Positions 1-57,046 of a DNA stretch of 57,046 nt are shown piece after piece. Each line of letters starts with the position of its first letter. Position 1 is the stretch's first letter. Source of the stretch: Basidiobolus meristosporus CBS 931.73 (lineage: Eukaryota; Basidiobolomycota; Basidiobolomycetes; Basidiobolales; Basidiobolaceae). The notes below the pieces were generated by a model that made no database searches, was not told the DNA's origin, and was given only the letters and a program-made list of their open reading frames with translations. The DNA is taken from positions 1 to 57,046 of the forward strand of contig MCFE01000569.1 in assembly GCA_002104905.1 (NCBI GenBank). The letters run 5' to 3'. A program made the position numbers and the translations under genes.

Positions 1-2081
1 ACTCCATTTGAAGCATGGTATGGATACAGACCAAGTGCAGAACATCTAAGAATATTTGGGTGTACAGCACATGCCAAAAAACTGGCCGGAAATCAGTCAA
101 ATTTGAGCCAAAAAGTGTAAAATGCATATTTTTGGGCTACTGCAATGAGAGTAAGGCATACAGACTCTACAATACCAAAGCAAAGAAGCTTATCAAGTCC
201 AGGGATGTGTTGTTTGATGAAAATTCAAAATTTTCACAAAAAATGACATCAGATGATGACGAAAATTTGATCTCAAGTCCACCAATTGTCAGGATTGAAT
301 CAGAGCAAAACAATGAAAATTTTTTCACTCCAGAGGACTCTACAACCGTGGTTCAGCCAGAATCAGTGCCCAGGAATATCCCAGAAGTGATCATTCCAGT
401 ATCAAATGCCTGGAGATCAAATTGGACAAGAAATAGCCCAAATTACTATATTAATGAGGGTACAAACTTAGCCTATGCCTATTCAGTCCATATTGATGAA
501 CCCCAGACTGTAAAAGAGGCCCTAAATAGCCCTCAGACAAAGTTTTGGAGATCTGCAATGACTGAGGAATATCAGGCCCTGATGGAAAATCAAACTTGGG
601 ACTTAGTCAAATTACCAATCAACCAAAAATCAATTGGATGCAGATGGGTCTTCAAGACAAAATACAAGGCTGATGGTACAATTGAAAGATACAAAGCAAG
701 ACTTGTAGCCAAAGGATACTCTCAAACAAAAGGACTTGACTATACTGAGACCTTTGCACCGGTAGCCAAGTTCAATTCCATCAGATTAATATTGGCTATT
801 GCAGCAAAATATAAGTTTTTTATTCATCAAATGGATGTAAAAACTGCATTTTTGAATGGAGAACTTGATGAGGATGTGTATATGGACCAGCCTGATGGGT
901 TTGTTGACCAAAATAACCCCCATTTGGTCTGCAAGCTTAAAAAGTCACTATATGGTCTCAAACAATCACCAAGAGCCTGGAATTGCAAGATAGATTCTTA
1001 TTTGGAATCTTTGAGTTTCAAAAGAAGTAATGCTGACTATAGTATATACTATAAGACAGATAGAGCAAATCCAGTTCTATTAGCTCTATATGTGGATGAT
1101 CTTATTATAGCCGCCAATAACCTAGAAACATTGGAAGAGACTAAATCCAGCCTATCTAAGGAGTTCAAGATGTCCAATCTAGGAGAACTTAGTTACTACT
1201 TAGGGATTAAGTTCTCCATAGACAGAAGTACCCAGACTATTACCCTAAGCCAATCCAAGTATATTCAAGATATACTAAAGAAGTACAAAATGGAAGACTG
1301 TAAACCAGCAGCTACCCCAATGGAGACAAACCTTAACTTGGTCAAAACTCAACCAAATCAAGAGAGCTTGGTGCCATCTGAAAGCCCTGACTTTCCTTAT
1401 CAATCTATGGTCGGCAGTCTGATGTATATCATGCTTGGAACACGTCCAGATATCTCATATTCAGTGGGAGTTGTCAGCCAACATAATCAGAATTATGGAT
1501 CTGATCATATTGCAGCAGTTAAGCGGATTTTTAGATACCTAATAAGGAACTGCTGATATCTGCTTAAGATACACTTATAAGGATTCAGAACAGGATCTTG
1601 TGGGATACTCTGATGCTGATTGGGGACGAAATTTAGAAGACAGAAGATCCACCACAGGATACACCTTTCTTTACTGTAAAGGAGCCATTTCATGGAATTC
1701 AAGAAAGCAACCAACCGTAGCACTTTCTACTACAGAGGCAGAGTATATGGCAGCCTGTGAAGCTACAAAAGAAGCAATGTGGTTAAGAAAGCTCTTTACA
1801 GATTTAGGCCTATGTCAAAAAATGCCTATTACTTTATTTCAAGATAATCAAGGATGTATACAATTAGGTAGAAATCCAACTTTTCATGCTAGAACCAAGC
1901 ACATAGATATTAGACATCATTTCATACGTGAAGCTATAGAGAATAACTTAGTTAGCTTAGTTTACTGTCCTACAGATGAAATGATTGCAGACATATTTAC
2001 CAAACCATTAGCTAGAGACAAGTTTGAATATCTTAGGTCAAAATTAGGACTAGTCAGTATGAACATTTAGCTGAGTGGGAG
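1..2081 (+). pseudogene. Ty1/copia retrotransposon copy 1, 3' part of pol (integrase end, RT, RNase H)
   Basis: This is the 3' half of a copia polyprotein, cut by the window edge. Base 1 corresponds to base 6717 of the full element at 4462-9145, and the two are nearly identical. The reverse transcriptase is visible (YVDDLII at about 1090-1110), followed by the RNase H motif YSDADWG (about 1603-1623). Relative to the full element it has one A missing near 108 (run GTCAAATTT against GTCAAAATTT) and one T gained near 1543 (CTAATAAGG against CTAAAAGG). The second change ends the long frame at 1556, and RNase H resumes in another frame to 2070. At 240-246 it keeps six A where the full element has five, so here the joint between the two pol halves is in frame. 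It ends in a polypurine tract just before the LTR. It is a recent, frameshifted copy. Confidence 0.93.
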
Positions 2082-2430
2082 TGTTGTAAAAATTCGTATT
2101 TCCACCTAAATATTCACCTAACTTAGTCACTTAGATCATCACCTCCAAATCCTAGAGAATACTGACCAAATTCCTTGTTGGGATTTACTTAGAATATTTT
2201 CACCAACATACCAGGTACCCAGAACATGAAAATTCTCAAAGTTGTCCAAACAGCCCCAAACTTTGCACACATGCTCTTGGGACCTTCCTTAACCTATTCT
2301 TCGTGTTTGTAATGCCAAGACCATGTAAAAGTATAAATACTACTTTTACATTCAATAAATCATTAAGTGAAAACCACATAATCTACTTGTTCTCCCAATC
2401 ACTTCCAATATCTCCAAGACTCTTACAACC
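2082..2430 (+). repeat. 3' LTR of copia copy 1
   Basis: It begins TGTTGTAA and follows the 349-bp LTR of the full element with scattered substitutions. The last base of the expected TTACAACA terminus is C instead of A, exactly where the sequence switches to an inverted gag fragment. No target duplication can be read because the right flank is another element. Confidence 0.9.
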
Positions 2431-3051
2431 CTTATTAGCACTTGGTTCTCTTAATTGTTCATCCAGAAGCCTTCCATATATGTAATTTAAGGTTGAATCT
2501 TCAGTTCTGGACTCTAGGGCTGATACAAGGCCCTGAAACTTGTCTGTCAGGCTATTCTGAATGGTAACTATCACATCCTCATCAGTAGTTGGTACACCCA
2601 CAGATTCCATTTCATCTACCAGCAGGGTAATTCAGTTAATCAGATTTTCAATTTCTTCTCCTGGCAGCATCTTTGTAGTAAAGAATTATTGTCTCAGATA
2701 CATTCTCTTAGCAGCTGAGCATGAATGGTAGGTGTCTTCTAATGCCTTCCTGGGATTCTTTGCTGTTTTTGCTCTTGAGCATTGAATTAGCAATTTGTCT
2801 TTAACATTAAGGCAAATGCAATTAGAGGCACTTTGTTCTTTCTCTGGTACTCAAAGGCTTCCTCTCCCACATTTTTAGGAGGGCATTCTTCTCCCATGAC
2901 AGTATCCCAAAGGCCTCTTTCTTGTAGCAGCATCTTCATCATCACCTTCCACACTTGGTAGTTAAATCCATCCAACTTTTCAGCAGAGGGAACAGTTCCA
3001 GTAATAGCAGTAGTAAATATTGCGGAGAGTGACAGCTTGGGGCTCATAACC
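2430..3051 (-). pseudogene. Inverted copia gag fragment
   Basis: Read on the minus strand, this matches the first ~600 bp of gag of the full element, from the start ATG region (beside 3051) to about residue 205. Several frameshifts and substitutions break the frame; the longest open piece runs through the neighbouring LTR to 2787. It is truncated at 2430, where it abuts the 3' LTR of copy 1 head-on. The tRNA-primer motif is still visible (CTCATAACC on the plus strand near 3043). It is a degenerate 5' end of an element in the opposite orientation. Confidence 0.88.
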
Positions 3052-3400
3052 TGTCCTAAGAGTCTTGGAGATATTGGAAGTGATTGGGAGAACAAGTAGA
3101 TTATGTGGTTTTCACTTAATGATTTATTGAATGTAAAAGTAGTATTTATACTGTTACATGGTCTTGGCATAAAAAACACATAGAATAGGTTAAGGAAGGT
3201 CCCAAGAACATGTGTGAAAAGTGTGGGGCTGTTTGGACAACTTTGAGGATTTTCATGTTTGGGGTACCTGATATTTTTGTGAAAATATTCTAAGTAAATC
3301 CCAACAAGGAACATGGTCAGTATTCTATATTATTTGAAGGTAATGATCTGAGTGACTAAGTTAGGTGAATATTTAGGTGGAATTACAAATTTTTACAACA
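3052..3400 (-). repeat. 5' LTR of the inverted copia fragment
   Basis: This is a full-length 349-bp LTR in inverted orientation, ending TTTTTACAACA at 3400 on the plus strand, the complement of the LTR start TGTTGTAAAAA. The other terminus reads TGTCCTAAG instead of TGTTGTAAG, so it is older and more diverged than the LTR pair of the intact element. Confidence 0.9.
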
Positions 3401-3479
3401 GCTATAATACAAACATAAAGCTGAACACATAGATCTCTGCTGCTACTGTATCCATTCTCTACTCCATCTTGCACCATGT

Positions 3480-3749
3480 GTGGAGAGTATTGGGCCTTGC
3501 TTCACCTTTTCGGAGTTTCCTATGGAGCGGATGTGTGGGAAGATAGGTAGACATGTTGAGTTGCAGGTACTACCATATCCCAATCTCATCAAGAATAATA
3601 CCATCAAATCTGTCATGCATGTGATAAGTTGGCACTTGGAGGACAGCCAGGAAGAGCTGGAAAATACTGAGGACAGATGTACACATGGAGACACCTATTT
3701 CTATGGCATCAAGAAGCTAAGAAGCCTCAAAATGTGGGTAATCAGTTAA
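3480..3749 (+). pseudogene. Possible DNA-transposon (Plavaka-like) transposase fragment
   Basis: An isolated 89-codon open frame contains FTFSEFPMERMCGKIGRHV followed by LPYPNLIKN. The pattern 'xMERxCGxL ... PYxNLxN' recalls the conserved tail of fungal Plavaka/CACTA-type transposases, where an M-E-R-x-C-G motif precedes a P-Y-x-N-L motif. Nothing else of a transposase, and no terminal inverted repeat, can be seen around it. The family call is from memory of the motif only and could be wrong; a short chance ORF is the alternative. Confidence 0.3.
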
Positions 3750-4053
3750 GTAATGCAAAGTTGGGTTGGGTGCAACAAGCAACTAATCTTTGTTAGGAAA
3801 ACTCTACCAAGGTATGCTGGGTTCCTCTTGGGTCACAAGCCAGCTTCTACACCATTCTATACATAATTCATGCAAACTAGAGCCAGAGTGCACCTATAAG
3901 GGGGACTAGAATCCAGCAGGGAGAAGGAATATATTGGCTAAATACCAAGAGTTCTTTGAGGAAATTCTGGAGGTGTTCATGGCAGAAATGGCAGCAACCA
4001 AGCATATGTTTGGAAGATGTATATGTTACCAGCAGTACAGGTATATGACAACT

Positions 4054-4461
4054 ATGCAAGTATCATACTAAAAAGCTGTAAAGTTGAGGTGATAGAAGTA
4101 TGTCAATTGTGGCAGGTGTGTCTTTGTATAGGTTAGTAAGCAGGAGGCCATATTTTTTTTGATGCAAACTATATGTGGAGTACCCAAGGTAGTAGTGAGC
4201 AAGCAAATAAAGAGGGGTGATTCTACAATGGAATATATGAATTGCACATGGAGAGGTAGAAAAAGGAAATACCATTTGGTAAGTTAGTATGGTAGCATTA
4301 TACAGAAATTGCTGTTGGCTGCCATACTGCCATTATAATGCCATTAGAGTGTTCCTGTGAAGTCATTGAAATACCATCAAGTTTTTTGCCATATAAGGCA
4401 ATTGGCTGTTCTGCCAGTTGGATCCATTTAAATTAGTTTTAGAGCACAATAAGACCACAAC
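4054..4461. repeat. Interspersed repeat X, left part of copy A
   Basis: From GCAAGTATCATAC onward this is recognisably the same sequence as 9370-9860: shared blocks include the segment near 4090 (AGAAGTATGT..AATTGTGGCAGG) and the block TTTTTTGCCATATAAGGCAA near 4383. It stops at 4461, where the intact copia element begins, and resumes at 9146. No coding potential is apparent. It is probably part of an older non-coding mobile element. Confidence 0.8.
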
Positions 4462-4810
4462 TGTTGTAAAAATTTGTATTTCCACCTAAATATTCACCTA
4501 ACTTAGTCACTTAGATCATCACCTTCAAATCCTAGAGAATACTGACCAAATTCCTTGTCGGGATTTACTTAGAATATTTTCACCAAAATACCAGGTACCC
4601 AGAACATGAAAATTCTCAAAGTTGTCCAAACAGCCCCAAACTTTGCACACATGTTCTTGGGACCTTCCTTAACCTATTCTACGTGTTTGTAATGCCAAGA
4701 CCATGTAAAAGTATAAATACTACTTTTACATTCAATAAATCATTAAGTGAAAACCACATAATCTACTTGTTCTCCAAATCACTTCCAATATCTCCAAGAC
4801 TCTTACAACA
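4462..4810 (+). repeat. 5' LTR of the intact copia element
   Basis: 349 bp, TG...CA ended with 8-bp perfect inverted termini. A TATAAATA box lies at 4712-4719 and an AATAAA at 4733-4738, so the transcript probably starts around 4740. From there to 4815 there is no upstream ATG. Confidence 0.93.
4712..4719 (+). promoter_or_regulatory. LTR TATA box
   Basis: TATAAATA inside the 5' LTR, about 100 bp before the first gag ATG. The same string is present in the 3' LTR and in the other LTR copies in the window. Confidence 0.6.
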
Positions 4811-4822
4811 GGTTATGAGCCC
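4811..4822 (+). promoter_or_regulatory. Primer binding site, half-tRNA initiator Met type
   Basis: GGTTATGAGCCC directly abuts the 5' LTR. It is the exact complement of the anticodon stem-loop of eukaryotic initiator tRNA-Met (GGGCTCATAACC, CAT anticodon in the middle). Drosophila copia and yeast Ty5 are known to prime from a cleaved 5' half of this tRNA rather than from its CCA end. There is no TGG expected for 3'-end priming, so half-tRNA priming is the best reading. The gag ATG (4815) lies within this site. Confidence 0.75.
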
Positions 4823-6962
4823 CAAGCTGTCACTCTCTGCAATATCTACTGCTGCTATTACTGGAATTTTTCCCTCTGCTGAAAAGTTGGATGGCACTAA
4901 CTACCAAGTGTGGAAGGTGAAGATGAAGATGCTGCTACAAGAAAGAGGCCTTTGGGATATTGTCATGGGAGAAGAATGCCCTCCTAAAAACGTGGGAGAG
5001 GAAGCCTTAAAGTACCAGAAGAAAGAACAAAGTGCCTTTAACTGCATTTGCCTTAATGTCAAGGACAAATTGCTAATTCAATGCTCAAGAGCAAAAACGG
5101 CAAAGAATGCCTGGAAGGCATTAGAAGACACCTACCAGTCATGTTCAGCTGCCAAGAAAATGTATCTGAGAAGAAAATTCTTTACTACAAAGATGCTGCC
5201 AGGAGAAGAAATGAAAAATCTAATTAACAGAATTACCCTGCTGGTAGATGAGATGGAATCTGTGGGCGTACCAACTACTGATGAGGATGTGATAGTTACC
5301 ATCCTGAATAGCCTGACAGACAAGTTTCAGGGCCTTGTATCAGCCCTAGAGTCCAGAACTGAAGATTTGACCTTAAATTACGTATATGGAAGGCTCCTGG
5401 ATGAAGAATTAAGAAAATCAAGCGCCAATAAGAAGGAAGAAGAAAATGCTTTAATAAGCAATGATAACCAACAAAGGAGGTACCCAAGACCCTACAAAGG
5501 CAACAACAACCTATTTTGCAACTACTGCAAAAGGAAAGGACACACATCAGACCGGTGTTTCAAAAAGAGAGATTATCAGCAAAAGAAGCCTGAATATGGA
5601 AATGCTGCAACAACTGAAGATAGACTATTCATATCTGCACTAAATATGACCACAAACAAGGATTCTCAGACGTGGTATAATGACTCTGGAGCTTCTCAAC
5701 ACTTTACACACCAAAAAGAACTTTTTACCCAATATCAAGAAATTCCAATTAAGAAGGTTTTCATGGGTGACAATAGAACACTTGATGCAGTGGGAGAAGG
5801 AACTATCCAAGTAAACCTTAGAAGCAGTGAAGGAAGCCATACACTGACCTTTAAAGAAGTACTCTATGTACCAGAAATAGCCAAGAACCTACTCTCTGTA
5901 AGCAAGGCCACAGCAGAAGGACTCAGTTTCAGTTTTGACAATTCTGGATGCAGGATCACTGATCAAAATGGTGCTCATATTTCTTTGGGCATCAGAGATC
6001 AGAACCTATACAAGTTGACTTATATTCCATCATATCTGGAAGCCAATATAAGTAACTTAAATGAAGAAACACCAATGCTTTGGCACAGGAGATTTGGACA
6101 CATCAATTTTGATTATTTGCGCAAAATGATCAAAGATCAGCTAATTTCTGGAGTGAAAATTGATCCCCCAGCTAATTTGGAGCACTGTGAAGCCTGCATA
6201 TATGGGAAACAAGCCAGACAACCGTTCAAGAGCTCTGGGTTAATCAAAACTAAGAAAAAATTAGATCTAATTCACTCAGATCTGTGTGGACCTATGCAAA
6301 ATTTATCCTTAGGCGGGATGAAGTATTTAATCACTTTTATTGATGATTATACAAGATACACATGGGTCTACTTCATGGAGAGAAAGGAAGAAGCTCTGTC
6401 TAAGCTCAGGGAGTTTAAAGCCATGGTGGAGAGAGAAACTGGTGAAAAAATCAAGAAAATACGCTCTGACAATGGTGGAGAATATACCTCAAAACTCTTC
6501 ATCCACTTCTGCAAAATTCATGGGATAAAGCAAGAGACTACTGTACCATACTCCCCACAGCAAAATGGAGTAGCAGAACGAGCTAACAGATCAATAATTG
6601 ATATGGCAAGATCTATGATCCATGATCAAAAATTATCCTATGATTTTTGGGCGGAATCAGTTGCCACTGCTGTATATCTTAAAAATAGGAGTTATAACAG
6701 AATACTTTGTGATTCTACTCCATTTGAAGCATGGTATGGATACAGACCAAGTGAAGAACATCTAAGAATATTTGGGTGTACAGCATATGCCAAAAAACTG
6801 GCCGGAAATCAGTCAAAATTTGAGCCAAAAAGTGTAAAATGCATATTTTTGGGCTACTGCAATGAGAGTAAGGCATACAGACTCTACAATACCAAAGCAA
6901 AGAAGCTTATCAAGTCCAGGGATGTGTTGTTTGATGAAAATTCAAAATTTTCACAAAAATGA
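4815..6962 (+). CDS. Copia Gag-protease-integrase, front part of the polyprotein
   Basis: 715 codons. The start is the ATG four bases after the LTR, the first ATG of the predicted transcript; the frame is open further upstream but only through the LTR promoter. Domains in order: Gag with the UBN2-like segment LTDKFQGLV; a CCHC zinc knuckle CNYCKRKGHTSDRC (about residues 234-247); aspartic protease motif NDSGAS (about 290); integrase HHCC zinc finger (HRRFGHINF ... CEACIYGKQ); integrase core with HSDLCGP, RSDNGGEY and SPQQNGVAERANR. All catalytic residues I can check are present. The frame closes at TGA 6960-6962, four bases into the next ORF, because one A is missing from a run relative to copy 1. 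Fragments of the same gag occur at 2430-3051 and 10178-11058. Confidence 0.92.
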   Translation: MSPKLSLSAISTAAITGIFPSAEKLDGTNYQVWKVKMKMLLQERGLWDIVMGEECPPKNVGEEALKYQKKEQSAFNCICLNVKDKLLIQCSRAKTAKNAWKALEDTYQSCSAAKKMYLRRKFFTTKMLPGEEMKNLINRITLLVDEMESVGVPTTDEDVIVTILNSLTDKFQGLVSALESRTEDLTLNYVYGRLLDEELRKSSANKKEEENALISNDNQQRRYPRPYKGNNNLFCNYCKRKGHTSDRCFKKRDYQQKKPEYGNAATTEDRLFISALNMTTNKDSQTWYNDSGASQHFTHQKELFTQYQEIPIKKVFMGDNRTLDAVGEGTIQVNLRSSEGSHTLTFKEVLYVPEIAKNLLSVSKATAEGLSFSFDNSGCRITDQNGAHISLGIRDQNLYKLTYIPSYLEANISNLNEETPMLWHRRFGHINFDYLRKMIKDQLISGVKIDPPANLEHCEACIYGKQARQPFKSSGLIKTKKKLDLIHSDLCGPMQNLSLGGMKYLITFIDDYTRYTWVYFMERKEEALSKLREFKAMVERETGEKIKKIRSDNGGEYTSKLFIHFCKIHGIKQETTVPYSPQQNGVAERANRSIIDMARSMIHDQKLSYDFWAESVATAVYLKNRSYNRILCDSTPFEAWYGYRPSEEHLRIFGCTAYAKKLAGNQSKFEPKSVKCIFLGYCNESKAYRLYNTKAKKLIKSRDVLFDENSKFSQK

Positions 6963-8785
6963 CATCAGATGATGACGAAAATTTGATCTCAAGTCCACCA
7001 ATTGTCAGGATTGAATCAGAGCAAAACAATGAAAATTTTTTCACTCCAGAGGACTCTACAACCGTGGTTCAGCCAGAATCAGTGCCCAGGAATATCCCAG
7101 AAGTGATCATTCCAGTATCAAATGCCCGGAGATCCAATCGGACAAGAAATAGCCCAAATTACTATATCAATGAGGGTACAAACTTAGCCTATGCCTATTC
7201 AGTCCATGTTGATGAACCCCAGACTGTAAAAGAGGCCCTAAATAGCCCTCAGGCGAAGTTTTGGAGATCTGCAATGACTGAGGAATATCAGGCACTGATG
7301 GAAAATCAAACTTGGGACTTAGTCAAATTACCAATCAACCAAAAATCAATTGGATGCAGATGGGTCTTCAAGACAAAATACAAGGCTGATGGTACAATTG
7401 AAAGATACAAAGCAAGACTTGTAGCCAAAGGATACTCTCAAACAAAAGGACTTGACTATACTGAGACCTTTGCACCGGTAGCCAAGTTTAATTCCATCAG
7501 ATTAATATTGGCTATTGCAGCCAAATATAAGTTTTTTATTCATCAAATGGATGTAAAAACTGCATTTTTGAATGGAGAACTTGATGAGGACGTGTATATG
7601 GACCAGCCTGATGGGCTTGTTGACCAAAATAACCCCCATTTGGTCTGCAAGCTTAAAAAGTCACTATATGGTCTCAAACAATCACCGAGAGCCTGGAATT
7701 GCAAGATAGATTCTTATTTGGAATCTTTGAGTTTCAAAAGGAGTAATGCTGACTATAGTATATACTATAAGCCAGATAGAGCAAATCCAGTTCTATTAGC
7801 TCTATATGTGGATGATCTTATTATAGCCGCCAATAACCTAGAAACATTGGAAGAGACTAAATCCAGCCTATCTAAGGAGTTCAAGATGTCCAATCTAGGA
7901 GAACTTAGTTACTACTTAGGGATTAAGTTCTCCATAGACAGAAGTACCCAGACTATTACCCTAAGTCAATCCAAGTATATTCAAGATATACTAAAGAAGT
8001 ACAAAATGGAAGACTGTAAACCGGCAGCTACCCCAATGGAGACAAACCTTAACTTGGTCAAAACTCAACCAAATCAAGAGAGCTTGGTGCCATCTGAAAG
8101 CCCTGACTTTCCTTATCAATCTATGGTCGGCAGTCTGATGTATATCATGCTTGGAACACGTCCAGATATCTCATATTCAGTGGGAGTAGTCAGCCAACAT
8201 AATCAGAATTATGGATCTGATCATATTGCAGCAGTTAAGCGGATTTTTAGATACCTAAAAGGAACTGCTGATATCTGCTTAAGATACACTTATAAGGATT
8301 CAGAACAGGATCTTGTGGGATACTCTGATGCTGATTGGGGACGAAATTTGGAAGACAGAAGATCTACCACAGGATACACCTTTCTTTACTGTAAAGGAGC
8401 CATTTCATGGAATTCAAGAAAGCAACCAACCGTAGCACTTTCCACCACAGAGGCAGAGTATATGGCAGCCTGTGAAGCTACAAAAGAAGCAATGTGGTTA
8501 AGAAAGCTCTTTACAGATTTAGGCCAATGTCAAAAAATGCCTATTACTTTATTTCAAGATAATCAAGGATGTATACAATTAGGTAGAAATCCAACTTTTC
8601 ATGCTAGAACCAAGCACATAGATATTAGACATCATTTCATACGTGAAGCTATAGAGAATAACTTAGTTAGCTTAGTTTACTGTCCTACAGATGAAATGAT
8701 TGCAGACATATTTACCAAACCATTAGCTAGAGACAAGTTTGAATATTTTAGGTCAAAATTAGGACTAGTCAGTATGAACATTTAG
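6959..8785 (+). CDS. Copia reverse transcriptase-RNase H, rear part of the polyprotein
   Basis: 608 codons from ATG 6959, overlapping the previous stop as ATGA. The RT palm is intact (MDVKTAFLNGEL, then YVDDLII), as is the RNase H domain (YSDADWG, STTEAEYMA, KHIDIRHHF). In copia elements this is normally continuous with integrase, and it is continuous in copy 1. The ORF may therefore be untranslated unless a -1 frameshift or re-initiation at the overlapping ATG occurs. The protein is otherwise free of stops, consistent with a very recent lesion or a homopolymer sequencing error. Confidence 0.92.
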   Translation: MTSDDDENLISSPPIVRIESEQNNENFFTPEDSTTVVQPESVPRNIPEVIIPVSNARRSNRTRNSPNYYINEGTNLAYAYSVHVDEPQTVKEALNSPQAKFWRSAMTEEYQALMENQTWDLVKLPINQKSIGCRWVFKTKYKADGTIERYKARLVAKGYSQTKGLDYTETFAPVAKFNSIRLILAIAAKYKFFIHQMDVKTAFLNGELDEDVYMDQPDGLVDQNNPHLVCKLKKSLYGLKQSPRAWNCKIDSYLESLSFKRSNADYSIYYKPDRANPVLLALYVDDLIIAANNLETLEETKSSLSKEFKMSNLGELSYYLGIKFSIDRSTQTITLSQSKYIQDILKKYKMEDCKPAATPMETNLNLVKTQPNQESLVPSESPDFPYQSMVGSLMYIMLGTRPDISYSVGVVSQHNQNYGSDHIAAVKRIFRYLKGTADICLRYTYKDSEQDLVGYSDADWGRNLEDRRSTTGYTFLYCKGAISWNSRKQPTVALSTTEAEYMAACEATKEAMWLRKLFTDLGQCQKMPITLFQDNQGCIQLGRNPTFHARTKHIDIRHHFIREAIENNLVSLVYCPTDEMIADIFTKPLARDKFEYFRSKLGLVSMNI

Positions 8786-8796
8786 CTGAGTGGGAG
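8786..8796 (+). other. Polypurine tract
   Basis: The bases between the pol stop and the 3' LTR read CTGAGTGGGAG, a purine-rich stretch in the position where plus-strand cDNA priming occurs in LTR retrotransposons. The same string precedes the LTR of copy 1 at 2071-2081. Confidence 0.6.
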
Positions 8797-9145
8797 TGTT
8801 GTAAAAATTTGTATTTCCACCTAAATATTCACCTAACTTAGTCACTTAGATCATCACCTTCAAATCCTAGAGAATACTGACCAAATTCCTTGTCGGGATT
8901 TACTTAGAATATTTTCACCAAAATACCAGGTACCCAGAACATGAAAATTCTCAAAGTTGTCCAAACAGCCCCAAACTTTGCACACATGTTCTTGGGACCT
9001 TCCTTAACCTATTCTACGTGTTTGTAATGCCAAGACCATGTAAAAGTATAAATACTACTTTTACATTCAATAAATCATTAAGTGAAAACTACATAATCTA
9101 CTTGTTCTCCAAATCACTTCCAATATCTCCAAGACTCTTACAACA
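8797..9145 (+). repeat. 3' LTR of the intact copia element
   Basis: 349 bp, identical by eye to the 5' LTR except T at 9090, and followed by the target duplication ACAAC. Confidence 0.93.
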
Positions 9146-9258
9146 ACAACAATGCCATGCAATTATTGTCACAGCACTAATCAAGTCTTATCAAGTTTTA
9201 TAACTTTATTTGGCAGTAAAATTAGCAAAACACCGTTGTAATCCCGCCATAAAATTGT
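9146..9258. repeat. Interspersed repeat X, right part of copy A
   Basis: The sequence resumes repeat X where it broke off at 4461: AACAATGCCATGC, then a TTTATTTGGCAGTAAAA segment and a TGTAATCCCGCCATAAAATTG end, matching 9856-9966 of copy B with substitutions. Confidence 0.75.
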
Positions 9259-11985: not shown

Positions 11986-14010
<2,025 letters not shown>

Positions 14011-49568: not shown

Positions 49569-51262
49569 ATGAATGACTGCTCAACAGCGAAGAAAATTAC
49601 AGCTACTCCATTGCCCACCAAGCAACTAGTCGTCCTCTGTCTGGTTCGACTGGCCGAGCCAATCAACTATACGATATTGTTTCCGTTCATGTACAGGGTT
49701 GGTTATATGAGTCAGAGTATGCTTTACCTTCTGTTAAAGTTGTTTTCGTGTTCCGCCAATTCTAGATGGTGAGGTGGATGAATGTAGGTGAAAATGTAGA
49801 AGATGTTAGTTCTTATGCTGGGCTCATTGCTGCTTCTTTCGCAATCGCTCAATTTATCAGCGGTACTTATGATATGCCTATCCTGGAACTCCCACTTGCT
49901 CATGTATATTAAACCGGGGTTTTAAAGGAATTCCTTGGGGGGCTTTGTCCGATCGTATAGGCCGAAAACCCGTAATACTGATGGGGTTGGTCGGAAGCAC
50001 CATAGGTATATTGCTGTTCGGTTTAAGCCGAAGTTACATAATGGCCATCACAGGTCGCTCCCTAGCCGGGCTGTTGAATGGCAACATAGGTGTCATAAAA
50101 TCCATGCTGGCGGAGATGACCGATGCAACCAATCGTGCGAAAGCTTTTACGCTGCTACCACTTGTCTGGGGGGTAGGCAGTGTGGTGGGCCCCTTGCTAG
50201 GTGGCCTGCTGTCTGAGCCAGCATCACAGTATCCCTCGATATTCGGGGAGAATACGTTTCTAATCCGGTATCCATATTTTCTACCTTGTGCAGTAGGTGC
50301 TTCTATCAGCATGGCTGGGACAATCTTCGGGTTCATGTACTTGGAAGAAACACTCGTCAAGAATGTTGAAAAGATCCCAGATGTACCCCGCACACCGAGC
50401 AGGCGCGACCATAGTGAAGATCCGGAAGCCCAGCCGCTAATCAGTCAAGAGACTCCCAAGTCGTCTAAACTGTCGTTTTACTCGTCACTCTCTAAGCCAA
50501 TTCACGTTGTGGTATTGTCGTACGTGCTGTTTTCACTGCAAAGTGTTATGTGGGACGAGCTCTACAATTTATGGGCCGCGATACCCCCAAGTCAATATGG
50601 TCTGGGGCTGGACCAGCAGAAGATTAGCTTTACCTTAGCAATCGTCGGTCTTCTTACCCCTATTGTGCAATTCCTTATATACCCACCCCTCCAAAGGCGC
50701 TACGGAGATCTGAGGTGTTATATGGTTGTGCTATTCGTTTACATTCCATTTTACTTCTTGCAGCCCTTCATCGCGGATCTCGCACGGTATGCCACCAATT
50801 TCCCTCCTGGCTCGAGCGAATACTCCTGGATTTGGACCGGTGTTTGGGCTGGAATAGGATTTTGTCTAGTAACCAAAGTTATATGCTCGCCAATCTGCTT
50901 TACCGCGACATCAATATTACTTGCTGAGATATGCCCATCAAGTGATACCCTTGGTGCTGTTAATGGGTGAGCAGCTGGAACCGTCAACTTTCATGACCCA
51001 TTTTACTCATTGTAACTGTCATAGATATTCTCAAGCAGCAGTCTCTCTTGTGAGGGCTATTGGGCCAGCATTGGGTGGCTTTTTACTCTCGAAGTCTATC
51101 AAGTCGCCGATGACTTTCCCATTCAATAGTCACTTGGTATGGACCGTCTTGTCGCTGATTGCACTGGTAACCTGGTGTGAGGCACATTGGGTCAAAGCTG
51201 TACTGGCCGAAGCAAGTTCTAAGAGTGCTGATTGTGAAGCGTCGCAAGAGCAATTGGCATAA
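49569..51262 (+). CDS. Major facilitator superfamily transporter (ZIF1/multidrug-like)
   Basis: Four exons (49569-49697, 49766-49862, 49928-50966, 51025-51262) give 500 aa with about 12 hydrophobic segments. Helix 1 has the fungal pattern LCLVRLAEPINYTILFPFMY. The loop 2-3 signature is GALSDRIGRKPVILMGL. The TM4-TM5 region holds GRSLAGLLNGNIGVIKSMLAEMTD and WGVGSVVGPLLGG. The C-terminal half contains AVSLVRAIGPALGGFLLS. A hydrophilic central loop (about residues 220-265) separates the two halves. This type of fungal MFS is related to plant zinc-induced facilitators; the substrate cannot be told from sequence. The splice at 49697 uses a GTTGGT donor, chosen because other donors break the frame. 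Confidence 0.88.
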
Positions 51263-53188: not shown

Positions 53189-54895
53189 ATGTCTGGCCTT
53201 CATCAAACCCTACCCGCTTTGATAACTTCTTTATCAGCCGAAGTAAAAGAAATAATTTTTTTCTATGTTGGCGATGTGTGTTTATATGCTGATTCTTTCG
53301 ACAGGCCAGGGAGCTTCTTTGAAGCCTTGGTAATCGGCCAAGGTGGTCCTGGGTTTGTTTTGGAAGAGGCCATCAGAAAGTGCCACAAACGGCTCATCTG
53401 GTGGCTACTAACAGCCGTAGCCTATCCAATAGACTATCTTCTCGCAAGTACAGCCTGTTATGGGGACCTATCTGTATTGGTATACATCGTCACTTTAATT
53501 GGTGAAGAATACAAAGAGTACGACACTCCAGCAAAACTCCTTTGTATAATCGAGGGAAAGTCACATATGTTGGACTACCTGCACCAAAAGAATCCCAGGT
53601 TTAAAGAGGGGGAACCTTATACTAGCTGTCTACAAACCTCTCTGATCGCAGGAATATCCAACTCGAGCAAGATGTACTCTTGGTACATGAGAAACCAATT
53701 TATTTTTCCTCCGATAGACCAGAGGTACCTCATAAGGGGATGTCTTCAGAATGATGACATTGCCGGGGCGATAGAGCACATCGACAATAGTGGCCTTGCA
53801 GGTTTACAAAAAGCCTTGGCATATGTCTCTTCTGGAGCAGAAGAAACATACCGATGGTTAGTTCTCAGGTATGCTGGAGAAGCAGATGTTTTGATGTATA
53901 TTGCTAGAGCATGTGCAAGAATGGGATATGTCGACACCCTTGAAAATCTTCTCAAGCAGCCATACAATGTGCATGTCGAGTATGATTTCTTTGCGGCAAT
54001 TCCTGATCTGGCAGTCGTCAAGGTCCTTCATAAGTATGCCTACAGGCGGAACAGTATTTCCTGCCTGTTGCATGCCGGATGTATCGCAAAAGTCAAATCC
54101 CGCTTTACTACCTACCGGACGCTGCGATGCTACCGAGAGCTATTAAGCACCTTCACATCAAATGAAAGTCTCCTTCAGGTGACTAGCCCCTTTTGCAAGA
54201 AACGCCACTCAGAAGATGTATTGTTGTATTTGGTGGACTTGGCTCAGGTTACCTCAGATCCTCGGCTGCTGATGAAGTATACTCGATATTCCATTGAATG
54301 TGGACATCTGAGGCTGCTGAAGAAGTTGAAGCCGTTTATTCAAGCAAGGAGTTGGCAAAGCCTCTCTCAGCAGATCGAGGCAGGAAGTCCGCATATATAT
54401 CGCAGTGGAAGTGTAGAGGTTGTTGATTATCTCTACAAATCGGGAGCCACCCAAGCAATACGGTTAGATTCTTTGATCACAAGGTTTGATCTAAGATCCA
54501 TTGAGAATTTTATGGAAAAAGGTGTTGTGAGGAATCCGGAGGATGAAAGCCTAGTAGAATGGAGCTTAGAAACCAAGCGGGGTTTGACGAAACAGATTTG
54601 GCGGAGCAATTCCTGTCTTGTCGGCCTTGAATATATGGATAGAAAGGATCGGATAATGAAGTTGGTAGAGTCTACCAGTGATGTATTTTGTTACCGAGAG
54701 CACTACTGTAGATTGAAAGCCGGCAACACTACACCTATTCTATCCAATACTAGTATTCGTTTTACTAGTATGCTAGCAAATCGATGCCCTCGTTCTTCGT
54801 CCAATCCATTGTACGATGAATTCCTCAATCATATGAAGTGTAATCTTTGGGAAACAAATATGCTCTTATTTATCCCCTGCGTTATGGAAAGATAG
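53189..54895 (+). CDS. Subtelomeric protein with F-box-like start and ankyrin-like repeats
   Basis: 568 aa in a single exon. The first 30 residues (LITSLSAEVKEIIFFYVGDV) resemble the core of an F-box. The rest is a string of helical repeats with degenerate ankyrin character: YLLASTACYGDLSVLVYIV, MYIARACARMGYVDTLENLL, YSIECGHLRLLKKLKPF and RSGSVEVVDYLYKSGATQAI. Such ANK/F-box proteins often expand in fungal accessory regions and can act as ubiquitin-ligase adaptors, but neither activity is shown here. It is the last gene before the telomeric retroelement array. Codon use looks ordinary, with no intron and no premature stop. Confidence 0.7.
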   Translation: MSGLHQTLPALITSLSAEVKEIIFFYVGDVCLYADSFDRPGSFFEALVIGQGGPGFVLEEAIRKCHKRLIWWLLTAVAYPIDYLLASTACYGDLSVLVYIVTLIGEEYKEYDTPAKLLCIIEGKSHMLDYLHQKNPRFKEGEPYTSCLQTSLIAGISNSSKMYSWYMRNQFIFPPIDQRYLIRGCLQNDDIAGAIEHIDNSGLAGLQKALAYVSSGAEETYRWLVLRYAGEADVLMYIARACARMGYVDTLENLLKQPYNVHVEYDFFAAIPDLAVVKVLHKYAYRRNSISCLLHAGCIAKVKSRFTTYRTLRCYRELLSTFTSNESLLQVTSPFCKKRHSEDVLLYLVDLAQVTSDPRLLMKYTRYSIECGHLRLLKKLKPFIQARSWQSLSQQIEAGSPHIYRSGSVEVVDYLYKSGATQAIRLDSLITRFDLRSIENFMEKGVVRNPEDESLVEWSLETKRGLTKQIWRSNSCLVGLEYMDRKDRIMKLVESTSDVFCYREHYCRLKAGNTTPILSNTSIRFTSMLANRCPRSSSNPLYDEFLNHMKCNLWETNMLLFIPCVMER

Positions 54896-55190
54896 ACTAG
54901 GAAGAAGGAAAGTTGTCAAGGATGGCAAGATCTTTCAAGTTTGAAAACTTGAGCAAATAAAAAACAATTTTGTTAGGTCTTGAAGTTGCCCCTAAATGTT
55001 CTTGTGGGATACTTTCACTCTTGATTATCCTGGAGTCTTTTGAGATCATTTAACTGACAAATTGCTTTGAAACCCATATTAATCTCTGAGTTTTCAAGTA
55101 GTAGTTTTACCCTTCCTCTGATGCACATACACAATCTATTTCATTAAGTAAGTTATCTGACTTAAACTTTGTTTCTTTTGTGGTTTAGAG
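54896..55190. other. Spacer between the last gene and the telomeric array
   Basis: About 0.3 kb, A/T-rich, with no ORF. It includes the 3' region of the F-box/ankyrin-like gene. Confidence 0.4.
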
Positions 55191-55300
55191 TTAGGGAGGT
55201 GAATGTTATCCAGAGGTGAAATCTGTTTCTCAACAGCTCAAATTAAAGAAGCTAAGTGCCACATGTGTAGCCTTTGTGCAATTAAATAAAGGGGTAGGCT
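55191..55300 (-). mobile_element. Telomeric retroelement 3'-end copy A (oldest)
   Basis: On the plus strand it begins TTAGGG, then follows the same order of words as the younger copies with many changes: AGAGGTGAAATCTGTTTC, then AAAGAAGC. It is a diverged 5'-truncated 3' end in the same orientation as copies B-D. Confidence 0.5.
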
Positions 55301-55301
55301 A

Positions 55302-55411
55302 TTAGGGGGGAGACAGTCACCAACAGGTGAAACCTTTGTTTCAGTTGAAACAAAGAAGCCAGCAGTACTGATTTAGCTTTGATACAAGAGTGTGTAGGTG
55401 AGGGGAATTGG
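55302..55411 (-). mobile_element. Telomeric retroelement 3'-end copy B
   Basis: Starts TTAGGGGGG on the plus strand, then AGACAGTCACCAACAGGTGAA and AAACAAAGAAGCCAGC, matching copy D at 55650-55735 (AAAGTCACCAAGGTAGGTGAA and ACAAACAAAGAAGCCAGC). It is 5'-truncated and ends at a copia LTR fragment. Confidence 0.65.
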
Positions 55412-55584
55412 TGTTGTAAGAGTCTTGGAGATATTGGAAGTGATTGGGAGAACATGTAGATTATGTGGTTTTCACTTGATGATTTATTGAATGTAAAAGT
55501 AGTATTTATACTTTTACATGGACTTGGCATAAAAAACACATAAAAAAAGGTTAAGGAAGGTCCCAATAACATGTGTGCAAAGTT
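55412..55584 (-). repeat. Truncated copia LTR fragment
   Basis: Contains the last ~173 bp of the copia LTR in inverted orientation, with the intact terminus TGTTGTAAGAG at 55412 and the TATA region inside. It breaks off at GCAAAGTT. The genuine LTR continues TGGGG at this point, but here the sequence becomes AGGGGGAGGGTTAGGGG. Confidence 0.88.
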
Positions 55585-55602
55585 AGGGGGAGGGTTAGGG
55601 GA
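55585..55602 (+). repeat. Interstitial telomere-like tract
   Basis: AGGGGGAGGGTTAGGGG, preceded by GTT from the LTR, is a degenerate TTAGGG-type tract between the broken LTR and retroelement copy C. Confidence 0.65.
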
Positions 55603-55646
55603 GGGAAAGTCACCAAGTTGGTGAAATCTTTATTTGAGTTAAGAAC
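55603..55646 (-). mobile_element. Telomeric retroelement 3'-end copy C
   Basis: AGGGAAAGTCACCAAG then GGTGAAATCTTTATTTGA is nearly identical to the 3' tail of copy D. It is severely 5'-truncated, keeping about 45 bp. Confidence 0.7.
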
Positions 55647-55777
55647 TAAGGGGGGAGGGAAAGTCACCAAGGTAGGTGAAATCTTTATTTGATTGCAGAC
55701 AAGTCTAACTACAAACAAAGAAGCCAGCTGGGAATAGAAGATTCCCAAAGTAAACACTAAGTTGAATATGAATAAAT

Positions 55778-56506
55778 CTAAGCTAAAGTTAAGGCAGTAT
55801 CCCAGAGTACACTGGAGTTCAGGTTCATGGGGGAGTGAAGTAGATAAGCTTGAGAGATATAATAATCTTTGAGGAAGTGGGTAACAGCAGGTGAAGGGGA
55901 GTTTTTGATAAGTGAAGTGAATCTTGAGAGCAGAGATTCCTCTAATGAGAAGGTCTTGTAAACTGGAGAATCAGGAAACTCTTTAAAGGCATGGTCAGTA
56001 GGTTCCCAGTAAAACTGGTCAGAGACATTTTGAGAGAACTCTTTAGCAATACTTTTGTCAAGTACTATCTCCAGAGTGTGATTGTTGATAAATCTCATGT
56101 TAACAATCTTGGATAAATTGTAACCTTGTTGCTTGAGATACATCCTATGTTCAGATATAGGAATGAACTCCACATTGGCAAAGTAGCAGACAGCCCAGTC
56201 AGTAGCAGGAGGCAAATCAGAAGTGGCAGGAAACTTTCTTTTAGTCTTGGGAGGAGCAGCAGGATGTCTTGAGGAAGCAGGAACAGGCTTTTTGACAGCT
56301 TCAGAGTAGGAAGAGTGAGCAGGAGCAGATGATTCTTGGGGAGTCTTGTTGACAGGAACAGCTGGCAGAGAGACAATAGATTCTTGCAGATCAGAGAAGG
56401 CAGAAAACAGCTTTTGAACTTGTTTCTTGAGTAAAGCATTTTCAGCTTCAACAAGTGCAAGCCTTTCCTCAAGGAAGGAAATCTGAAGGGAATGGAGTGA
56501 AGCCAT
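55778..56506 (-). CDS. ORF1 (Gag-like) of the telomeric retroelement
   Basis: 242 aa from ATG 56506. Residues about 5-45 form a coiled coil (LEERLALVEAENALLKKQ), followed by a Pro/Ser/Lys-rich linker (about 55-95). A globular part starts WAVCYFANVEFIPISEHRMY and continues YNLSKIVNMRFINNHTLEIV, with the beta-alpha-beta rhythm of an RRM-like fold. Coiled coil plus RRM-like domain is the plan of many LINE ORF1 proteins, and I recall similar 'YF.g....P.......L....' segments beside reverse transcriptases in fungal LINEs. No zinc knuckle is visible. The ORF ends cleanly in TAA/TAG context rather than by truncation. Assignment to a retroelement rests on domain plan and position. Confidence 0.55.
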   Translation of the reverse strand: MASLHSLQISFLEERLALVEAENALLKKQVQKLFSAFSDLQESIVSLPAVPVNKTPQESSAPAHSSYSEAVKKPVPASSRHPAAPPKTKRKFPATSDLPPATDWAVCYFANVEFIPISEHRMYLKQQGYNLSKIVNMRFINNHTLEIVLDKSIAKEFSQNVSDQFYWEPTDHAFKEFPDSPVYKTFSLEESLLSRFTSLIKNSPSPAVTHFLKDYYISQAYLLHSPMNLNSSVLWDTALTLA

Positions 56507-56546
56507 AGGAAATAAGAAGAAGAGGGTGAGATGGGGTGGGTGGGTG

Positions 56547-56772
56547 GGAAAATTAGCAGGGAGAAGAGAAGGAAGGAGCAAAAATTCCAGAAGTCAGAAT
56601 TTATAGATGGATGGACAAGGGTAGATGGATGGATTATTCCTGGGTTAGGAAAATTAGCAGGGAGAAGAGAAGGAAGGAGCAAAAATTCCAGAAGTCAGAA
56701 TTTATAGATGGATGGACAAGGGTAGATGGATGGATTATTCCTGGGTTAGGAAAATTAGCAGGGAGAAGAGAA
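56547..56772 (-). repeat. 101-bp tandem repeats in the 5' leader, promoter-like
   Basis: Two full units (56547-56647, 56648-56748), identical by eye, and the first 24 bp of a third (56749-56772), which runs into the telomere. On the element strand each full unit contains CATCTATAAATTC, a TATA box; the proximal one is about 100 bp before the ORF1 ATG. Units meet at the string GGGTTAGG (56642-56649 and 56743-56750 on the plus strand). Confidence 0.8.
56599..56606 (-). promoter_or_regulatory. TATA box of the telomeric retroelement
   Basis: CTATAAAT on the element strand, repeated 101 bp further out (56700-56707). The distance to the ORF1 start suits a fungal RNA polymerase II promoter. Confidence 0.45.
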
Positions 56773-57046
56773 GGGTTAGGGTTAGGGTTAGGGTTAGGGT
56801 TAGGGTTAGGGTTAGGGTTAGGGTTAGGGTTAGGGTTAGGGTTAGGGTTAGGGTTAGGGTTAGGGTTAGGGTTAGGGTTAGGGTTAGGGTTAGGGTTAGG
56901 GTTAGGGTTAGGGTTAGGGTTAGGGTTAGGGTTAGGGTTAGGGTTAGGGTTAGGGTTAGGGTTAGGGTTAGGGTTAGGGTTAGGGTTAGGGTTAGGGTTA
57001 GGGTTAGGGTTAGGGTTAGGGTTAGGGTTAGGGTTAGGGTTAGGTT
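56773..57046 (+). repeat. Telomere, (TTAGGG)n
   Basis: About 274 bp, roughly 45 perfect GGGTTA units running G-rich strand 5' to 3' toward the window end; only the last unit is short (TTAGGTT). This marks the physical right end of the chromosome. Confidence 0.98.

Follow-up and report, generated by a model that had tools for sequence, protein, structure and literature searches.

A chromosome end of Basidiobolus meristosporus probably built by a community of telomere-dwelling non-LTR retroelements

To our knowledge, the retroelement telomeres known so far either replace telomerase, as in Drosophila, or are telomerase telomeres invaded by one or a few types of element, as with MoTeR, FoTeR and TRAS/SART. 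The stretch considered here, referred to as the window, is the whole of a 57,046-nucleotide contig (MCFE01000569.1; C834 in the numbering used here) of the Basidiobolus meristosporus CBS 931.73 assembly (1311 contigs, 89.0 Mb), and its right edge is a chromosome end at which a head-to-tail array of non-long terminal repeat (non-LTR) retroelements lies beneath a TTAGGG tract. Among described systems, HeT-A/TART of Drosophila comes closest in its logic; by host group the closest are MoTeR and FoTeR, and by type of endonuclease TRAS/SART. HeT-A, TART and TAHRE are arrayed head to tail, their 3' poly(A) directed toward the centromere and their 5' ends outward, and an abundant element bearing only Gag, the product of open reading frame 1 (ORF1), stands beside relatives that carry reverse transcriptase (RT), terminal addition being the mechanism described (PMC5537684). 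In Pyricularia (Magnaporthe) oryzae the autonomous and non-autonomous elements MoTeR1 and MoTeR2 likewise face outward with their 5' ends, short (TTAGGG)n lies between copies, and truncated copies seed new telomeres (PMC7367193); FoTeR of Fusarium oxysporum is found only at ends, 5' outward, with 5' tandem repeats and common truncation (PMC12857005). TRAS1 and SART1 of Bombyx are telomere-specific long interspersed nuclear elements (LINEs) in telomeric repeats, annealing of the SART1 RNA to its target having been proposed (PMC7265360), and at dysfunctional human telomeres the RT of the L1 LINE may prime from an exposed 3' end independently of endonuclease (PMC10088271).

The Basidiobolus chromosome end was probably built by a community of telomere-dwelling non-LTR retroelements, likely reverse transcribed onto eroded ends and likely capped by telomerase. 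The community comprises two-ORF LINEs (families E and F), ORF1-only elements (D and G) and a short element resembling a short interspersed nuclear element (SINE; family S), all with one kind of 3' tail. The original prediction, made from the letters of the window, had proposed a single telomere-dedicated retroelement resembling HeT-A/MoTeR; order and polarity bear this likeness out, but two ORFs and an apurinic/apyrimidinic endonuclease (APE)-type endonuclease separate the elements from MoTeR, and a telomerase gene separates the host from a HeT-A-type system. Each known system in fact fails at least one defining feature, and the arrays belong to neither HeT-A/TART nor MoTeR. As in HeT-A/TART, the elements are arranged head to tail with the 5' end outward, lie only at ends in the long contigs checked, and include Gag-only members beside RT-bearing partners with homologous ORF1s, so that D and G might stand to the E and F LINEs as HeT-A does to TART. 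Unlike that system, the 3' end is a hairpin followed by a C-run rather than oligo(A), the arrays are TTAGGG-capped in a genome with a TERT domain (PF12009), the ORF2 proteins are at most 32% identical to listed proteins outside their own group, and a SINE-like family takes part. With MoTeR are shared the fungal host, the outward 5' end, the mixture of autonomous and non-autonomous members and the short TTAGGG remnants between copies. MoTeR1, however, is CRE/SLACS-related, and MoTeR and FoTeR have just one ORF, in which a restriction-like endonuclease follows the RT, whereas the Basidiobolus LINEs have two ORFs with the APE-type endonuclease before the RT; the MoTeR 5' end is TTCGGG(TTTGGG)n, in contrast to the 101-bp (D) or 100–101-bp (E) monomers or the S head found here, which hold only short TTAGGG-like motifs. 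FoTeR resembles the present elements in its confinement to ends, outward 5' end, 5' tandem repeats and frequent truncation, but differs in its 4–55 copies per genome as well as its endonuclease, it typically has 3–7 repeats on its 3' side, and no ORF1-only or SINE-like partners are described in the excerpt of that paper (PMC12857005). Insertion of human L1 at telomeres is occasional, whereas in Basidiobolus the elements are the standing architecture of the ends examined.

Position and polarity across the genome support the telomere-dedicated reading. For D, the 44 longest of 134 matching pieces, on 39 contigs, came from a search in which 40 of 2053 candidates were scored, making the count a lower bound; 43 of these 44 point their 5' end toward the nearer contig end, none is farther than 10.5 kb from the end that it faces, and on contigs of at least 40 kb the 5' end is outward in 33 of 33. 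The exact tail pattern occurs at 1,510 places, 1388 forward and 122 reverse, and the same pattern read backwards at none. As 30-mers of TTAGGG repeats are distributed 6978 to 73 between the two strands, contigs are mostly stored with the telomere to the right, and distance, not strand alone, is the test. Among the first 100 tail places (29 contigs), 90 face the nearer end, including 37 of 37 on contigs longer than 100 kb, where none is more than 22.2 kb away. The LTR of a Copia element served as a control: it is found 988 times forward and 1094 times reverse across the genome, and on the same long contigs 28 of 45 copies (45 of 100 listed) face the nearer end, spread over 0.5–330 kb. Pieces of E ORF1 lie on one strand in all 114 cases listed (111 of 480 candidates scored). 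At the window end and 20 related loci (L-numbered; 21 in all) the tails, allowing at most three mismatches, are oriented 86 to 2, a base-shuffled control giving 3 matches; this one-way orientation far exceeds chance. Mixed orientation, internal spread and a single local duplication are contradicted by what was checked. One contig of 312,558 bp (C424) opens with repeats of CCCTAA and closes with repeats of TTAGGG, with mirrored S copies at both ends (L077, L078); small chromosomes may therefore exist, and this contig together with the many TTAGGG-capped ones suggests a large number of chromosome ends.

In the window, four tails stand on one strand, each preceded by a telomere-like string, as had been noticed from the sequence: A at about 55189–55226, B from 55302, C from 55595 and D from 55650. 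They had been taken for four copies of one tail, and the number and common orientation hold, but their identity does not. What distinguishes the tails is the sequence enclosed by two conserved halves, GTCACCAA and GGTGAAATC, which defines the families (GGTA, AGTA or GGCA in D; GT in S; CA in E; GTT in F); on this basis B is E-type, C is F-type, D belongs to the ORF1-only family and A is decayed. The elements have their coding sense on the minus strand. Copy A (55189..55301, minus; GTTAGGGAGG...GGTGAAATC), its outer limit set at the start of B, is the diverged short 3' end of an older element with its stem partly lost, and has only weak partial matches elsewhere. Copy B (55302..55411, minus; TTAGGGGGGAGACAGTCACCAACAGGTGAAA...) is a 3' fragment of the E family; it matches E-family tails in other arrays, mostly at 89–93%, and in L020 and L081 an E tail is followed by ORF2. 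A Copia LTR-like fragment (55412..55589, minus), foreign to the telomeric elements, separates B from C and matches the flanks of the window's own Copia in both orientations. At its edge, and overlapping the LTR match, TTAGGGGGAGGG (55583..55594, minus) precedes copy C, and may possibly represent a tail aborted after a few bases or a diverged telomeric remnant. Copy C (55595..55649, minus; loop GTT) is an F-family 3' fragment; in the joined L027/L076 the F tail leads into ORF2 and then ORF1.

Copy D (55650..56774, minus) is a nearly full-length ORF1-only element with at least 44 long matches in the genome. Its 3' hairpin, TCACC-AAGGTA-GGTGA, lies at 55664..55679 (minus), with AATAAA on its 5' side in RNA sense, and its ORF1 of 242 aa at 55778..56506 (minus); the C-terminal part is homologous to the ORF1s of E and F, and a coiled coil was judged by eye to lie in the N-terminal part. 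Tandem 101-bp monomers at the 5' end (56542..56774, minus), two whole (56542–56743) and a partial third, embed GGGTTAGG, and beyond them the terminal (TTAGGG)n tract (about 56772..57046, plus) runs to the contig end. That the youngest and longest copy lies outermost, as originally read, fits the window, but short truncated copies can be outermost elsewhere (L022, L024); in L022 a tail of a few tens of bases is followed immediately by the cap.

The arrays are composed of several related families with a common 3' hairpin and C-rich RNA end, not of one element; D, G, E and F were read from the arrays. E is a LINE, of which a copy that looks complete sits immediately beneath the cap in contig C516 (L081), with the tail at 123, ORF2 of 922 aa at 175–2940, ORF1 of 523 aa at 2944–4512 and TTAGGG from 4893, the interval between ORF1 and TTAGGG holding 5' monomers of 100–101 bp. 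F is a second LINE with open frames for ORF2 (949 aa) and ORF1 (497 aa) in the joined L027/L076. These two, with RT and the same kind of tail, are longer partners of the kind that had been proposed, with telomerase as the alternative, as the source of RT for copy D, which has ORF1 only. In D the sole ORF has the 5' monomers on one side and about 128 bp of 3' sequence on the other. G is a second ORF1-only family (L009:4680-5591, and 12974-13864 in L027/L076) whose protein is 42–43% identical to that of D, and the ORF1s of both are homologous to those of E and F, with E-values from 5e-19 (D with E) to about 2e-6 (G with F). Pfam gave no match for D ORF1 and none above cut-off for E ORF1. A cysteine-rich, zinc-ribbon-like start is seen in the ORF1s of E (L081:2944-4512; CPNC...CKC) and F (10263-11753 in L027/L076; CTAC...CKAC) and is absent from D and G. 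In L017, L019 and L028 the D monomer arrays have grown to about 8–13 copies by motif count.

The S family is about 0.5 kb, measuring 513 bases from head to hairpin in all nine complete copies in the loci examined, and its head is distributed 193 to 10 on the two strands genome-wide. Strings like an A-box and a B-box were found by eye; ARAGORN reported 0 genes in five loci and Rfam no tRNA match up to E 5 in one copy, so S is termed only SINE-like. Read as RNA, the common end consists of AATAAA, the hairpin UCACC-loop-GGUGA and a C-rich terminus (CCCTCCCC or similar), in that order; the pairing arms are identical across four families and the loops vary. As the hairpins fold only slightly better than shuffled sequences (z -1.1 to -2.4 in four families), the case for them rests mainly on conservation across families. 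Short TTAGGG-like motifs are also embedded in the elements: GGGTTAGG in the D monomers, GGGTTAGGG in the G monomers and, on the same strand, in the S head, and TTAGGGTTAGGG in the E leader (L081:4519-4530); the F leader, in the one read (L027 to about 11810), holds none. Outside long tracts GGGTTAGG favours the telomere-ward G strand 143 to 5 in the 165.9 kb of arrays examined, which is not independent evidence because the occurrences are largely repeats of a few families and telomeric remnants. That such motifs reseed telomerase is a guess.

On the inner side of the junctions the tail is usually preceded by a partial TTAGGG repeat that ends in a G-run of variable length, and in 75 of 75 parsed junctions of the four main families this remnant is 0–25 bp long (four further D, E and S rows were unparsed and seven tails are of other types), as against terminal tracts of 168–271 bp at the capped ends present in 17 of 21 loci. 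The difference favours the view that the elements were reverse transcribed from eroded ends, which telomerase then capped, and suggests that the substrate is an eroded end rather than a normal telomere. Genome-wide, 67 tails are preceded by three perfect repeats, compared with 1,510 tails by the stricter tail pattern; interstitial tracts of MoTeR can exceed 20 repeats, and TRAS/SART enter at a fixed base inside the repeats, in contrast to the tiny, variable remnants seen here. Sequence at the D junctions is mostly of TTAGGG type, as the original prediction would have it. By script count a whole TTAGGG lies within 24 bases before the tail in 63 of 75 junctions and in the other 12 does not; two of these look like decayed repeats (L023:4045, L028:65), and the rest are joined via G bases alone, as where the window's copy D sits on copy C, where a tail abuts the 5' end of a further D (L012:4983) or where one abuts a truncated D (L028:5115). 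At the outer boundary telomeric sequence sets in at five different phases among 17 loci; by eye the cap overlaps the element by 1–4 bases in the window, L011, L012, L022, L024 and L025, and not in L013 or L014. The same D 5' end is followed by at least three TTAGGG at nine places in the genome.

Most simply, these junctions would arise by the following series of steps. The ORF2 protein would bind the shared RNA end, in cis for E and F and in trans for D, G and S; the C-run of the RNA would pair with the G strand at a chromosome end that is short or broken, annealing of the C-rich end being proposed already in the original reading; and that eroded or broken end, not a nick, would serve as primer. 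Copying into cDNA would then reach the 5' end of the RNA or stop early, leaving a full or truncated copy, and telomerase would extend the new 3' end and restore the TTAGGG cap. A TERT RNA-binding domain (PF12009) is encoded in two adjacent pieces at contig C880.

The main rival, judged unlikely, is ordinary target-primed reverse transcription, in which the APE-type endonuclease would nick the TTAGGG tract in its most basal repeats, much as TRAS1 nicks within its own tract, and leave the old tract outside; it is the main rival because the endonuclease fold survives. E and F have the features of APE-type LINEs: an RVT_1 RT (PF00078, 1e-24) with FADD or YADD, an upstream APE-like endonuclease and a separate ORF1. 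A match to PF14529 (0.00035) lies under its gathering cut-off, and it is the AlphaFold2 (AF2) model of residues 1-210 of ORF2 that is predicted to fold as an APE-type endonuclease; since the model of the whole protein is poor (mean predicted local distance difference test score, pLDDT, 53), this part alone was used, with pLDDT of at least 70 in 16 of 21 ten-residue blocks. In a PDB search the rows shown begin with three full-length L1 ORF2p entries, followed by nucleases of the APE1/ExoIII type and retroelement endonucleases; among the 50 rows listed the best TM-score by target length, 0.66–0.67, belongs to the TRAS1 endonuclease (1wdu), also a short target, in which respect the Basidiobolus elements are like TRAS1. 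The GDxN and SDH motifs are retained. The glutamate of the QET motif binds metal in APE1, and here the QET position reads IDV in P0001, P0002, P0004 and P0006, the four of four group members covering it, which speaks against the nicking reaction. Single and profile searches recovered the same five close relatives of ORF2 (48–80% identity), the next of the proteins listed being at most 32% identical. The whole repeat at 63 junctions also suits a nick within repeats. The uniformly short inner remnants, however, speak against random entry into a mature tract, and the rival is also weakened by the 12 junctions with no whole repeat, several of which reach the element interior by a G-run alone, and by the varying phase of the outer tract; SART1 moreover requires at least three repeats at its target (PMC7265360).

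It is very unlikely that the arrays owe their spread mainly to recombination or break-induced copying from one chromosome end to another, with few true transpositions, although MoTeR arrays grow partly in this way (PMC7367193), the monomer arrays vary in length, and 10 of 89 flanks are redundant. The remaining 79 inner junctions are distinct, truncation points are many and different, and 13 flanks fall into shared clusters, 11 of them being full-length S or D 5' ends, that is, repeated targets, and the other two an S cut at nearly the same point. Local segmental duplication as the origin of the array is ruled out by the same 79 distinct junctions among 89. The constraint on D ORF1 also speaks against recombination: after 4 of 28 motif matches were dropped as chance matches elsewhere, all 24 remaining copies have an open frame of exactly 242 codons, and a pN/pS of 0.32 (276 pairs) indicates, together with these open frames, that the sequence is constrained, at least in the source copies. 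That the elements are ordinary dispersed LINEs surviving best near ends, or an assembly artefact, is scarcely credible and largely contradicted, for although contigs also terminate at repeats and four of 21 loci have no terminal TTAGGG tract, the Copia LTR of the same assembly is dispersed without strand bias, the tails on long contigs face outward in 37 of 37, and 17 of 21 loci have the tract at the contig end.

Several points weigh against insertion at eroded ends by a telomere-dwelling community. The counts were all made on a single assembly, in which repeat ends may have been collapsed or duplicated, and the end-distance test covered 29 contigs for tails and 39 for D out of 1311. Ten of the 100 tail places, each on a contig no longer than about 20 kb, face the farther end, as does one of the 44 D copies, on a 12.8-kb contig, and to these are added the four loci of 21 that lack a terminal tract. 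The mobility and RNA ends of the elements are predicted here from genome sequence. A nick at the telomere base could yield the same junctions, the aspartate replacing the QET glutamate may still work, and a retained endonuclease fold with GDxN and SDH would be odd if never used; part of the array growth may, finally, be due to recombination.

More tentatively, and with rather less than even confidence, building of the end by such a community may be extended to two systems of end maintenance operating at once. Telomerase would act at the tip, and a guild formed by LINEs, Gag-only elements and a SINE dedicated to telomeres would rebuild nearly repeat-less ends, all members being recruited via one RNA 3' hairpin and C-run, while the motifs of D, G, E and S could reseed telomerase; this would amount to a division of labour like that of HeT-A/TART, independently evolved in a telomerase-positive fungus. 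In the open-access literature no report was found of telomeric retroelements in Basidiobolus, for which one paper, on DNA methylation, came up, or of a telomeric SINE, and among the 10 of 27 papers listed on telomeric LINEs in early-diverging fungi none was on this group by title. One such fungus holds, beneath TTAGGG caps, no fewer than 1,510 tails from several families that likely cooperate, Gag-only and SINE-like ones included. The arrays make it directly testable whether retroelements heal eroded ends ahead of telomerase, and would, if so, be a second way to rebuild chromosome ends; the families also provide a naturally occurring collection of RNAs that share the same end.

Inward of the array, Ty1/Copia copies and LTR pieces in both orientations occupy 15-9149, with two long Copia ORFs end to end (4683-6962 and 6959-8785), and a polyadenylate-binding protein is encoded at 11986-13560 (minus), with a 100% match to a CBS 931.73 protein. 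No known RNA family reaches its gathering threshold in the window. A Major-facilitator transporter at 49873-51262 (plus) is read in two frames, with a likely intron near 50970. Directly inside the array, a 568-aa open frame at 53189-54895 (plus) with a sub-threshold ankyrin match is the final long host-like frame before the telomere.

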